A stretch of 64,000 nucleotides of DNA from Planctomycetota bacterium (lineage in GTDB: Bacteria; Planctomycetota; Planctomycetia; Gemmatales; Gemmataceae): contig JACPZP010000051.1 in the NCBI GenBank assembly GCA_016195405.1, forward strand, positions 1-64,000, read 5' to 3'. Each line of letters begins with the position of its first letter. Within the stretch, counting starts at the first letter, position 1. A program made the position numbers and the translations under genes. The notes beneath the pieces are model-generated. The model ran no database searches, was not told the origin of the DNA, and saw only the letters and a program-made list of their open reading frames with translations. Below, in pieces: positions 24,784-61,823 of the stretch.

Positions 24784-25335
24784 TTACTTGAGGATTTTCT
24801 TCAAATCCCCCACCACCTTCTCGACGGCGGCGGTGTTGAGTTCGCCCTTGCGAAACGTATGGTTCGCCTCAACGGTGCGCTTGTTGTAAAGCACGACGGT
24901 GACGTCCGCGTCCTTGGCAATTTTGTAATCCTTGGGACCGGCGACATTGTCAACGGCGAAGACCAGTTTCTTGAGGCCTGCCTTCTCCGCCACTTTCTTG
25001 AGCTTGTCGGCCGCCCCCTCCTCGTCCGTCAGGAAGGTGACAAAACTGCACATGCTCTTGTCCTTGTTCTCAACGGTTGCGGCGTCAATCTTCTTGACCA
25101 AACTGGTCAAGGAGTCGCTGGCTTCGCGCGCGAAGATCATAGCGACCGGGCTTCCGCCGGAACTTCAGACCAAGCAGTTCTTCTTGCCGGCCTGCGACCC
25201 CGTCAAATTGAGCGGGTGGAACGGCGTGGGGTGTTCGCCGACTTGCAGGCCAGATTTCAGAGCGTCTCCTGCCCAGCCGCTGGCTGTCACCAGCGCGGCG
25301 AGCATGAGGCCCCCCACAGCTAAGCGATGTTTCAT
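24784..25335 (-). CDS. Predicted selenoprotein: exported thioredoxin-like protein with CxxU motif
   Basis: From ATG 25335 (AGGAGG 11 bases upstream) a signal peptide (MKHRLAVGGLMLAALVTASG) leads in frame to K-K-N-C-L-V at codons 51-56. A TGA follows at codon 57 (25165-25167). The same frame continues as SSGGSPVAMIFAREASD to a TAA at 24784: 183 residues if TGA is read as Sec. The paralogue at 19453 has HCLVCEHG at this place, so TGA replaces the second redox Cys. Both sides of the TGA are conserved in the paralogue, which argues against chance adjacency. Hairpins lie downstream of the TGA (see 25113-25147). Followed by an intrinsic terminator; rtcA is upstream on the same strand. Alternatives are a nonsense mutation or sequencing error. 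Confidence 0.78.
25113..25147 (-). promoter_or_regulatory. Candidate SECIS-like hairpin after the TGA of the thioredoxin-like gene
   Basis: In the mRNA, GGUCGCU (starting 18 bases after the UGA) pairs with AGCGACU. Inside this, CUUCG and CGAAG pair around a four-base loop about 35 bases after the UGA. A competing small hairpin, AGC-CCGGUC-GCU, would put a GGU loop only 17 bases after the UGA. Bacterial SECIS elements lie just 3' of the UGA with a G/GU-containing apical loop. Which fold is used is unknown. Confidence 0.45.
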
Positions 25336-49123: not shown

Positions 49124-50314
49124 ATGCGTCGCATGCTGTTGGCTTTTGGACTGTTGCCTTGGTGCATCGGCGCCTCCATGGCGGACGATCCGCAGAAGGA
49201 GCGCCTCACCTGTCAGAACACCTCCGCGATTCGGTGGTTTCTGCCCGGTCAATTCGAGGAGGCTCGCGCCCACGCGGAAAAGACGAAGCGAATCCTCATG
49301 GTGAAGGGAATCTCATTTGGGATTGATGCGGTCGGCGCGAAGTGCGCCACTAAAGGAAACTGGTGACCTGGCGCCGAACCGATGCGAGCAGGTTGCTTCG
49401 CAGAGCTGCGGGTCATTCATCTTCTCAATCGTCGCTTTGTGCCGTTCTATTTCAACACCGGCGGACCTGGACTAGGCAAAGATCAGGCGGCCGCCGATTT
49501 CGTCAAAGGGAAAGTCAAGAACAAGTGGGCGCATTTCACGGCTTTCACCGGCAAGGGCGAGGCACTCGACGAAAGCGAGGTTTACGCCGACAAGGATGGG
49601 ATCTTCGACTTTCTCATGAGCTTGTTGCGCAAACACCCTGAGTTCGATCACATGACGGAGACCGAGAAGAAAACGCTTGCTACCGCCAAGGAAAATCTTA
49701 AGGACGACGCTTCGCAACTAGCCGCCGGCGAGTTGCTTGAGGAACTTGGCCGTTACGCCGAAGCGGGACCGTATTATCAGCGAATACTGGATGGCGAAGG
49801 CGGCGGCGCTGCCCGTGCCGACGCCCATCGCGGCTTGGCTCGCATGGCGCGTTACGAGAAGAAGTGGGACAATTTGGAGAGAATTCTCGCAATCGCCGAA
49901 AAAGAGAATGCCGGCAAGCGCCTTGGGCTCGAAGGCGACGTCGCCACGGAACGCGCCTACCGTCTCCTTGCCGACAAGAAGTACGAGGAAGTGCGCGCGC
50001 TGTTGGACAAGCACATCAAGGCGCATCCAGATTCGAAGCGCATGGGTGAGATGCACTTCAATGCCGGCGTGGCATGCTTCTTCTTGAAGGACCTTGATTG
50101 GGCCTACTATCACTGGTGCTGGGTCGTGGAGAACATTCCCGACGATCACATGCAAAGGCGCTGTTACATTGCCGCCGCTCACAAAGGAATGCCCTATCCC
50201 AATCCCGAGCTGGGCGGCTTTCAGAGCAACCAAAAGGGCGGCAACATCCAGGTTATCCAGGCCGCCTATGCCAACGGCCGCAAAGTGTACGAGCGGTTGA
50301 AGAGCAGTTATTGA
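49124..50314 (+). CDS. Predicted selenoprotein: thioredoxin-fold domain (WU-PGA) plus TPR repeats
   Basis: From ATG 49124 (GAGGAGGAG just upstream), a signal peptide (MRRMLLAFGLLPWCIGASMA) leads to KRILMVKGISFGIDAVG and KGNW. TGA at codon 81 (49364-49366) is followed in frame by PGAEPMRAGCFAELRVIHLL, then NRRFVPFYFNTGG, to the stop at 50314: 396 residues if TGA is Sec. 'W-U-P-G-A-E-x-M-R' matches the WC-x-x-C site of thioredoxin-like proteins, with Sec at the first Cys. The C-terminal 220 residues are TPR-like helices (ELLEELGRYAEAGPYYQRIL; NAGVACFFLKDLDWAYYHWC). A hairpin with a GGU loop lies 24 bases after the TGA (49383-49402). It follows the ECF sigma gene on the same strand. Confidence 0.82.
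49383..49402 (+). promoter_or_regulatory. Candidate bacterial SECIS element
   Basis: UGCGAGCA and UGCUUCGCA form an 8-bp stem with one bulged U, capped by a GGU loop that begins 25 bases after the UGA. The apical part GCAGGU closely resembles the GCAGGUCUGC apex of the E. coli fdhF SECIS. Position and loop fit the bacterial rule. The hairpin contains the ATG (49382) that a gene finder would use to start the downstream fragment. Confidence 0.7.
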
Positions 50315-59499: not shown

Positions 59500-60711
59500 T
59501 TACGCGGCCAGACTTAGGGGGGCGCTTTGGGCGGCCATCCAATTCAGGCACCGCGCCCAGTTCGCGCTGCTTCCCGGCGTAAAACGCCCCAGGAGCCGTG
59601 GGCCGGCCGCGCCGGTGACGTTCGGCAGGTTGGCCGGCACGCCATCCATGGCCAGCGCTGCCAATCCGGCATGTGCTAATGCGTTGCGCGCATCAACCGG
59701 CACGCCATGCGCATCCGTTTTTTCCACGGGGACGGCGCCAATGCCTTGCTCAAGCAAGCGCCACAGAAGTCCGTTGCGAACGCCGCCGCCGCTCAGCAGC
59801 ACCCGATCGGGCGGCTTGGGAAGGAACTGCTTGATCGCTTGTAAGATCGCGCGGGCCACGAAGTGATTGGCGGTGCAGAGCAGGTCGTGCAGGCTGCGGC
59901 CTTCGTGCGTGGCCTGCCGAGCCGCCTGGTGAATGAACTCGCCGCCGAAATCCTGCGCCGACAAGTGGCGCGGCGGCTGCTTTTGGAAGAAAGGATGCGT
60001 TAGCCAGCGCTCGACCAAGGACTCGATACAGCGGCCCTGCACCGCATGGGTGCCGCCCGCGTCGATCATTTCACGGCCTCCGGTGAGCAGGCCCATCAGA
60101 CCGTCCAAAAGGAGCGTGCCTGGGGCTGCTGGGAAGCCGATCACTTGCCGTGTGTCCGTTCCTTTCGGGAGCCAAACAATCGTGGCGATCCCGCCCAAAT
60201 GGAGCAAAAGACGGTTCTCGTTCGGTTGATGAAAGTGCAGGTAATCGATCAGCGGCGTTAGCGGCAGACCGTGCCCCCCGGCGGCCAGATCGCGCGTTTT
60301 GAAATCGCTGACAACACTCATGCCTGTCCTCTCAGCGACAATCTCGCTCATGCCGAGGTCCAACACGGCAGGATACCGTGCTTCGGGAAGATGCCATAGC
60401 GTGTGCCCTGAGCTGCCCGTGCACAGAATTCGCTGCATGGGAAAACGGGCCTGTTCCACAACCGTCCGTGCCGCGCCGGCGAAGGACTCGCCCAAATAGC
60501 GGTGCAACAGAACGACCTGTCGTGGATTGAGGGCCTGACCGGCCGATGCGCGCAGCAACCATTCGCGCAACTCGCGCGCGTGCGGTTGATGCAGATGATG
60601 CACGATTCGACAACGCCATTCCATGCCCGTGCCTGCGGACTCCACCAGGACCGCACTAACCCCTGTTTGGCTTGAGCCGGAGGAAAGTCCGACAATCCAG
60701 CGCTGCGACAT
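59500..60711 (-). CDS. Anhydro-N-acetylmuramic-acid-kinase-like protein
   Basis: A 403-residue protein of the AnmK family, which phosphorylates and hydrolyses anhMurNAc for peptidoglycan recycling. Visible blocks are SDFKTRDLAAGGHGLPLTPL, LLHLGGIATIVWLP, GTLLLDGLMGLL, SAQDFGGEFI, RVLLSGGGVRNGLLWRLLEQ and GVPVDARNALAHAGLAALAM. The N-terminal ATP/substrate block is GLSSGSSQTGVSAVLVE, whereas standard AnmK has G-x-M-S-G-T-S-x-D-G-V-D. The two acidic positions are replaced by Thr and Ser. Activity is therefore uncertain. Confidence 0.78.
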   Translation of the reverse strand: MSQRWIVGLSSGSSQTGVSAVLVESAGTGMEWRCRIVHHLHQPHARELREWLLRASAGQALNPRQVVLLHRYLGESFAGAARTVVEQARFPMQRILCTGSSGHTLWHLPEARYPAVLDLGMSEIVAERTGMSVVSDFKTRDLAAGGHGLPLTPLIDYLHFHQPNENRLLLHLGGIATIVWLPKGTDTRQVIGFPAAPGTLLLDGLMGLLTGGREMIDAGGTHAVQGRCIESLVERWLTHPFFQKQPPRHLSAQDFGGEFIHQAARQATHEGRSLHDLLCTANHFVARAILQAIKQFLPKPPDRVLLSGGGVRNGLLWRLLEQGIGAVPVEKTDAHGVPVDARNALAHAGLAALAMDGVPANLPNVTGAAGPRLLGRFTPGSSANWARCLNWMAAQSAPLSLAA

Positions 60712-60780
60712 GGTTTGAAGTTCCGAAAAATCCTAGTTACGCTAACCCGCAAGCGGGTCGCGCTAAACCGCGAGCCGTGT

Positions 60781-61554
60781 TCAGGCGGCTGCACGCGGAC
60801 GGGCGACCGCATCTTGATCGATGCCAGCGCGAACAGCGGCCTGCAGGAAGCACTCGAACAGTTGCATGTCGAGGGCCGACGCCGATTCCGATTCGGGCTG
60901 CCATTGCACGCCGATGGCGAACCAGTTGGGATCGGTCGCTTCAATGGCTTCAATAACTCCGTCGGGCGCCTTGGCACAAACGCGGAAGCGCGGCCCGACT
61001 TGTTTGACGGCCTGATGATGATTGCTGTTGACGCGAATTTCTTCGCCGCCATAGATTTCTTCGAGCCGCGTGCCGCGCTCCAAGAGCACCGCGTGACGAT
61101 GCGGGCCGCTGCAGGAGGGATCGCAGTGCGGCAAGGCCCGCGGCATCTCCTCCGGAATGTGCAGGATCAGCGTTCCTCCGCAAGCCACGTTCAGCTGGTG
61201 CATCCCGACTCCAGTTCCCAAAACAGGCATTTGCCTGTGCATCAGGAGACGCACCAGCACGCGGTCGTTGTCTTCGCGGCGCTCCGCCATCGGCTGAACC
61301 GAGGCGTGTGTGCGCAGCCCTTGCTTGCGCGGATCCATATCCATGCCGGTCGACAGCACGAACCCGTCTACGCGATCGAGAAACGCGCTGATCTCCGCCT
61401 CTTTGCCATAAGGAGGCATCAAGATGGGCAGGCCTCCCGCGGCGAGAACGGCGTCGAAGTAGCCGGCGCTCAAGCGTATATGCTCGCGCGTGAGCTTGTT
61501 GGCAGGGAAATAATCAACATTCACGCCGATGAGCGGCCTGTTCGGATGGCGCAT
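60781..61554 (-). CDS. Glutamine-amidotransferase-like (peptidase C26) protein lacking catalytic Cys and His
   Basis: A 257-residue class I amidotransferase-like protein of the gamma-glutamyl-GABA hydrolase (PuuD) type. It has PLIGVNVDYFPANKLTREHI, LPILMPPYG, FLDRVDGFVLSTGMDMDP, NVACGGTLILHIPEEMP, NSNHHQAVKQVG and WFAIGVQWQPES. The nucleophile elbow, normally G-x-C-R-G-M-Q, reads LGTGVGMHQLN, with Gly replacing Cys. The catalytic His of GVQWHPE is Gln (WQPE). Both changes were read directly from codons (GGA and CAG). A binding or scaffolding role is more likely than hydrolysis. It is upstream of the AnmK-like gene on the same strand. Confidence 0.82.
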   Translation of the reverse strand: MRHPNRPLIGVNVDYFPANKLTREHIRLSAGYFDAVLAAGGLPILMPPYGKEAEISAFLDRVDGFVLSTGMDMDPRKQGLRTHASVQPMAERREDNDRVLVRLLMHRQMPVLGTGVGMHQLNVACGGTLILHIPEEMPRALPHCDPSCSGPHRHAVLLERGTRLEEIYGGEEIRVNSNHHQAVKQVGPRFRVCAKAPDGVIEAIEATDPNWFAIGVQWQPESESASALDMQLFECFLQAAVRAGIDQDAVARPRAAA

Positions 61555-61823
61555 TCCAGTTTCCTCCTTGGCATGGAGCGCGAGGGGAGGTTGTCCGGCG
61601 GGTTCCGGTCCGCCAAAGCGGGCGGAGTATAGCGGCGGTTGTTACGAGTAAACAAGGCCGGTTGCACGAATCGGGATGTGTACAAATCAATAGCTGATTG
61701 AGCCGTGGGATAGGTGCTCAAGATTGGAATTCTGCGCTACGTGACTTGCCGATTTTCGTGGTCAACCTATTGCGGGCGAAGCAGTTATATTATAGCATTG
61801 CCAAAAGAGATTCTCGCTCCGCC

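Follow-up and report, generated by a model that had tools for sequence, protein, structure and literature searches.

Does a reading frame that is interrupted once by TGA encode a single selenoprotein, two separate genes or a damaged copy of one gene? The question is raised by a locus in the window, by which we mean the whole 64,000-nucleotide stretch of planctomycete DNA that was analysed. Re-reading of the frame showed that the ATG at 49124, the TGA at 49364-49366 and the terminal TGA at 50312-50314 share one register, the TGA at 49364-49366 being its sole interruption, with 80 codons before it and 315 after it. This agrees with the preliminary description of the locus; the peptides quoted there were found in the translation, as was the tryptophan (Trp80) immediately 5' of the in-frame TGA. 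We read the gene as encoding an exported selenoprotein with a redox site at Sec81 and a TPR arm, and give this reading a probability of about 0.85.

Table. Features of the predicted selenoprotein gene, in window coordinates.
Feature	Position	Strand	Remarks
CDS of predicted selenoprotein	49124..50314	+	396 residues including Sec81; terminal stop TGA 50312-50314
Sec-type signal peptide, predicted (MRRMLLAFGLLPWCIGASMA)	49124..49183	+	by inspection; hydrophobic leaders also begin the homologues
Thioredoxin-like domain, residues ~37-172	49232..49639	+	profile to PDB 2kuc and 2lst; AlphaFold domain model against 2lst
TGA taken as selenocysteine codon (Sec81), site of first Cys in W-C-x-x-C	49364..49366	+	TGA in 25/25 homologues; aligned with the first Cys in 2kuc and in 2lst
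Candidate bacterial SECIS hairpin	49383..49402	+	UGCGA-GCA-[GGU]-UGC-U-UCGCA; apical GGU 49391-49393
Codon of invariant Arg88 (U+7)	49385..49387	+	within hairpin; R >=90% conserved in the wider superfamily
TPR-type alpha solenoid, residues ~179-340	49658..50143	+	TPR_14 profile; helix pairs in AlphaFold model

A secreted or periplasmic location had been suggested for the product. The signal peptide, recognised by inspection, supports export, and the protein is very likely to be exported.

Homologues of the whole frame were sought first among 149 relatives, which yielded two proteins at about 54-56% identity (L010 and L011) and one at 35% (L012). A paralogue with 29% identity (L017/L083) lies on contig C160 of the host's own genome, and each of these four genes contains one TGA. 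When 392 genomes of the phylum were searched with a profile, about 20 further strong matches were obtained, nearly all with a single TGA; two of them also have a TAG inside the reported match, and one has three TGAs within the reported stretch. Among the sequences read individually, from other Planctomycetota and with identities down to about 30%, the same codon was TGA in 25 of 25. The motif around it is WUPGAEPMRAG in subfamily A, which includes the window gene, GWUPAAEVLRAGP in subfamily B and WUPAGDALRAVSL in subfamily C. In the tree these proteins form a clade of 23 rows (the WUP clade), all with Sec (support 100/99), and tRNA-Sec is present in the genomes of the three nearest relatives. 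A nearly identical copy of the C-terminal part of the paralogue on C160 (L083, motif WUPAGDATRAV) lies at the end of contig C115 (L095), possibly as a duplication or an assembly edge.

The locus could be read without recoding as two genes, an 80-residue secreted protein followed by a separate TPR protein starting from ATG 49382 or nearby, and an ATG six codons past the TGA does open a frame of 310 residues. However, 25 homologues retain both the frame and the TGA codon, and conservation is strong before, across and just 3' of the stop, including the WUP that lies ahead of any start codon. Each flanking stretch is conserved independently of the other; the part 5' of the TGA alone recovers its counterparts at 46-65% identity (E down to 1e-25), and the pieces before and after the TGA are separated by exactly one codon at each compared locus. 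Moreover, both halves together form one thioredoxin fold, and relatives from genomes without Sec machinery have cysteine at this codon. Homologues that all start 3' of the TGA had been named in the preliminary description as an argument against recoding; the homologues do not start there. Two separate genes are thus very improbable.

A pseudogene or sequencing error, in which the TGA would stand for a Trp, Cys or Gly codon that had mutated or been misread, has in its favour the draft state of the host genome (6.86 Mb in 214 contigs, 90% complete) and the existence of one genuinely broken homologue locus (L073, on contig C684 of genome G348). Against it, the same TGA occurs in every homologue, from independent assemblies, and dN is lower than dS both before and after the codon. 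Purifying selection acts on both sides of the TGA: six subfamily-A genes gave dN of 0.37-0.68 and dS from about 0.9 to saturation in either part, and third positions in the six homologues are near saturation. We consider damage or error at this codon extremely unlikely. At L073 the Sec-bearing loop has been lost by a deletion with a change of frame, and this was the only damaged copy; searches of that genome, which is 77% complete, recovered no SelA and no tRNA-Sec.

The components needed for selenocysteine insertion are encoded by the host. A tRNA-Sec with anticodon TCA scored 74.8 bits, over the cut-off, SelA was found with an E value of 6e-169, and SelD is also present. SelB was detected above cut-off in two parts, the N-terminal part on C166 and the C-terminal part on C127, adjoining selA. 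The selB gene is divided here by contig ends (L019 and L027), and SelD lies within a 765-codon frame on C67, perhaps as a fusion. Absence of this machinery, which had also been listed as fatal to the proposal, is therefore not what was observed.

In some other bacteria UGA is recoded by routes that do not involve selenocysteine, and a suppressor inserting Trp, Gly or Cys would likewise produce a full-length protein here. In the window, however, long ORFs end in TGA more often than in any other stop codon (19 of 43), which argues that UGA has not been reassigned genome-wide. SelA, SelB, SelD and tRNA-Sec are all encoded, and the codon corresponds to the catalytic cysteine of relatives, so that non-Sec decoding has only a very small probability. 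We rejected the two-gene, pseudogene and code-reassignment readings from the evidence of the homologues, of dN/dS and of stop-codon usage. Codon 81 is almost certainly decoded as selenocysteine, as predicted from the sequence, and SelB with tRNA-Sec would insert it, steered by a hairpin just 3' of the UGA.

The published bSECIS model places a G in the first two loop positions at 16-37 nt from the UGA (PMC13188914). In the window the RNA folds as a hairpin with one bulged U, whose apical GGU lies 24 nt past the UGA. Across 11 sequences in one register, pairing was present in 89.6% of cells, with 9 double-change cells, and covariation was 0.481 compared with 0.247 in shuffles, none of 500 shuffles reaching the observed value. 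Sliding the partner by 1-3 columns destroyed the signal. The register varies by subfamily, an AGGG..CCUU type being shifted by two bases. Furthermore, randomisation of synonymous codons gave a mean z of -1.87 for 25 genes and -0.06 at control sites. Hence the SECIS prediction called for in the preliminary description is supported by family-wide covariation and synonymous constraint; for the window gene alone the signal is weak (z -0.84, with 21% of synonymous variants as stable). The generic bSECIS criteria were dropped as evidence because they do not discriminate, passing at 25 of 25 family sites and also at 68 of 99 control sites.

The fold of the region spanning the TGA was examined by profile comparison and modelling. 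A profile of 23 domains matched PDB 2kuc (E 3e-4) with Sec placed over the first cysteine of WCGPC, and a profile of the wider superfamily matched 2lst (E 2e-8) and 2kuc (E 1e-6), as well as 3ira and AGR2. An AlphaFold model of the domain (pLDDT 76.5) matches 2lst with TM scores of 0.61/0.67, and the full-length model has a pLDDT of 78.6, the loop around Sec81 being modelled at pLDDT below 50. Profile alignment and fold search therefore agree on a thioredoxin-like domain across the TGA, as had been proposed, and the suggestion that Sec occupies the site of the first cysteine of W-C-x-x-C is borne out by the alignment of the TGA column with cysteines of solved thioredoxin-fold proteins. A redox site of thioredoxin fold at Sec81 is highly probable. 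The TPR tail was also recovered: a TPR_14 match (E 3.6e-4) lies under the Pfam cut-off, helix pairs in the model are mostly above pLDDT 85, and the tail is conserved across the clade.

The active site departs from the usual pattern in several respects. The second active-site cysteine is replaced throughout the close clade, giving UxxA or UxxG, and a two-residue redox centre (CxxC, UxxC or CxxU) is absent from it. Arg88, at position U+7, does not vary within the clade. Only the closest relatives share Cys91, which is therefore not a resolving residue of general use. Subfamily A (KWAHF) has no proline where the canonical cis-Pro would precede the central strand, and a TP motif is retained in subfamily B (VPTPP).

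An alignment of homologues had been expected to show W-C or W-U at the site; W-U is the only form in the close family, and no W-C was found there, nor any other Cys form of the WUP clade. When one genome for each of 84,980 species was scanned with a narrow pattern that allowed for WCP[GA], which falls short of a full census, just three relatives came back, all with Sec (a Fimbriiglobus MAG, a Gemmatales MAG and a Planctomycetota MAG). A conserved gene neighbourhood or operon that might hint at a substrate was looked for, and none was found.

Since the motif is UxxA and Arg88 is invariant, Sec81, placed where the first active-site helix begins, may function as a single activated selenolate. Its target would be an oxidised thiol, a sulfenate or a peroxide, and the selenium intermediate would be resolved by a different thiol. 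The C-terminal solenoid could hold a client protein or partner, as the chaperedoxin CnoX/YbbN does with its TPR domain. By this analogy, a protein-directed, chaperedoxin-like role in reduction or repair is our first choice, tentatively held. Our second choice, which appears rather unlikely, is a 1-Sec peroxidase acting mainly on peroxide or organohydroperoxide, with the TPR arm as a partner anchor only. The lone Sec without resolving cysteine (UxxA) and the invariant arginine resemble one-Cys/Sec peroxidases chemically, and the predicted export would suit such an enzyme; but the fold is of the Thioredoxin_7/DsbH type rather than that of a peroxiredoxin or GPX, and the TPR tail is kept throughout the clade.

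The domain profile also matches many shorter proteins of the phylum, most with a single TGA, with motifs such as GLUSAGHSLRAVTLS, CUAAGDVLRTVTFS and CUPSGTDLRAGLLS. With a 32-row profile searched against the 392 Planctomycetota genomes, exactly one TGA was counted by hand in 135 of the best 150 matches. SelA, also counted by hand, occurs in 57 of the 63 genomes with superfamily matches, compared with 246 of 392 overall; the six without it are drafts of 67-91% completeness, and one of these has tRNA-Sec. Cysteine occupies the Sec position in two distant groups, one with CANSR and one with [TV]CLG/CCLG, the latter found only in three genomes (G480, G157 and G282), all without SelA and tRNA-Sec. 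None of the superfamily members tested reached the cut-off of a Pfam or NCBIfam family. In an alignment (A6) of loci L110-L149 from other Planctomycetota genomes, the shared motif is U-x-x-[AGS]-x3-R-[AT]-[GV]. Locus L093 (contig C104 of genome G337) carries adjoining domain copies, one with a TGA (RCUGGAYALRAG) and one with Asp-Gly-Gly instead (RTDGGSISLRGG), possibly through loss of Sec after duplication. On balance we lean towards placing the WUP clade as a Sec-only redox family within a radiation of exported, thioredoxin-like selenoproteins that spans the Planctomycetota and shares U-x-x-[AGS]-x3-R. If so, the radiation would be among the largest undescribed bacterial selenoprotein groups, with a monoselenol chemistry that cysteine cannot replace.

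The host appears to make wider use of selenium. A scan of the window for TGA-containing frames gave 19 candidates, and besides the gene at 49124-50314 only 24787-25335 was judged real from its sequence and homologues; the candidate at 60502-61632 was unconvincing by eye. This second candidate, on the minus strand and probably the other one counted in the preliminary description, is an exported, redoxin-like protein of 183 residues with C-L-V-U. Gemmataceae relatives carry homologues of it both with one TGA (58-63% identity) and without interruption. UGA-bearing superfamily members also occur elsewhere in the genome, at C148:11342-11611 (L121, CUGYGEGLRAGPLSD) and C51:8923-9192 (L124, CUPSGTDLRAGLLS). 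With the paralogue on C160, at least four more UGA candidates are present (24787-25335 in the window and those on C160, C51 and C148), in keeping with the earlier suggestion that this organism makes common use of selenium.

Discovery of selenoproteins mostly depends on Cys counterparts (PMC13188914), and a close clade without a Cys form is therefore missed by such methods. Annotation would split all genes of this kind into two truncated parts. For both reasons, Planctomycetota may harbour a large hidden selenoproteome, and the window gene offers a testable case of selenocysteine that cysteine may not replace. For planctomycetes, formate dehydrogenase and formylmethanofuran dehydrogenase are the selenoprotein examples described in the text of PMC4807772. 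The 119 prokaryotic selenoprotein families of a 2026 inventory (PMC13188914) include no WUP or UxxA thioredoxin-TPR family, and NCBIfam release 20 and Pfam hold no family for the window protein, giving weak TPR-type matches only. The family is probably novel with respect to the literature compared, subscription papers and preprints lying outside it.

Two catalogued selenoprotein families come closest. NF041199, a Trx7/PDZ domain-containing selenoprotein, has a Thioredoxin_7 domain and the listed motif CxxU (PMC13188914), whereas the window protein has UxxA and TPR in place of CxxU and PDZ, and has no NCBIfam match. NF041383, the VPGUxxT thioredoxin-like selenoprotein (PMC13188914), similarly lacks a resolving cysteine; its motif differs, however, it has no TPR, and it does not match the window protein, touching a distant Cys relative at E 0.003, far under cut-off.

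The Thioredoxin_7/DsbH-type domains (2lst, 2kuc, 3ira and 7tkv, and AGR2) are alike in fold and in the position of the redox residue. The window protein differs from them in having Sec for the first cysteine, Ala for the second and the invariant Arg at U+7, and adds a loop before Sec and the TPR tail; it did not reach the cut-offs of the Pfam thioredoxin-type models. In architecture it resembles CnoX/YbbN, with an N-terminal thioredoxin fold followed by C-terminal TPR. The YbbN structures of E. coli and Salmonella rank top in a Foldseek search with the full model, with TM scores of only 0.22-0.30 over the whole chain, and because this superposition is poor the chaperedoxin comparison rests on architecture. 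CnoX of E. coli and Caulobacter is cytoplasmic, works with GroEL/DnaK and carries SxxC or WCGPC (PMC6282202); the window protein, in contrast, has UxxA and a signal peptide predicted by inspection. Predicted thioredoxin-fold selenoproteins are well known as a kind, and no new principle is involved. What is new, as far as checked, is the apparent lack of Cys forms, the family itself, its UxxA...R site and the fusion of that site to a TPR arm.
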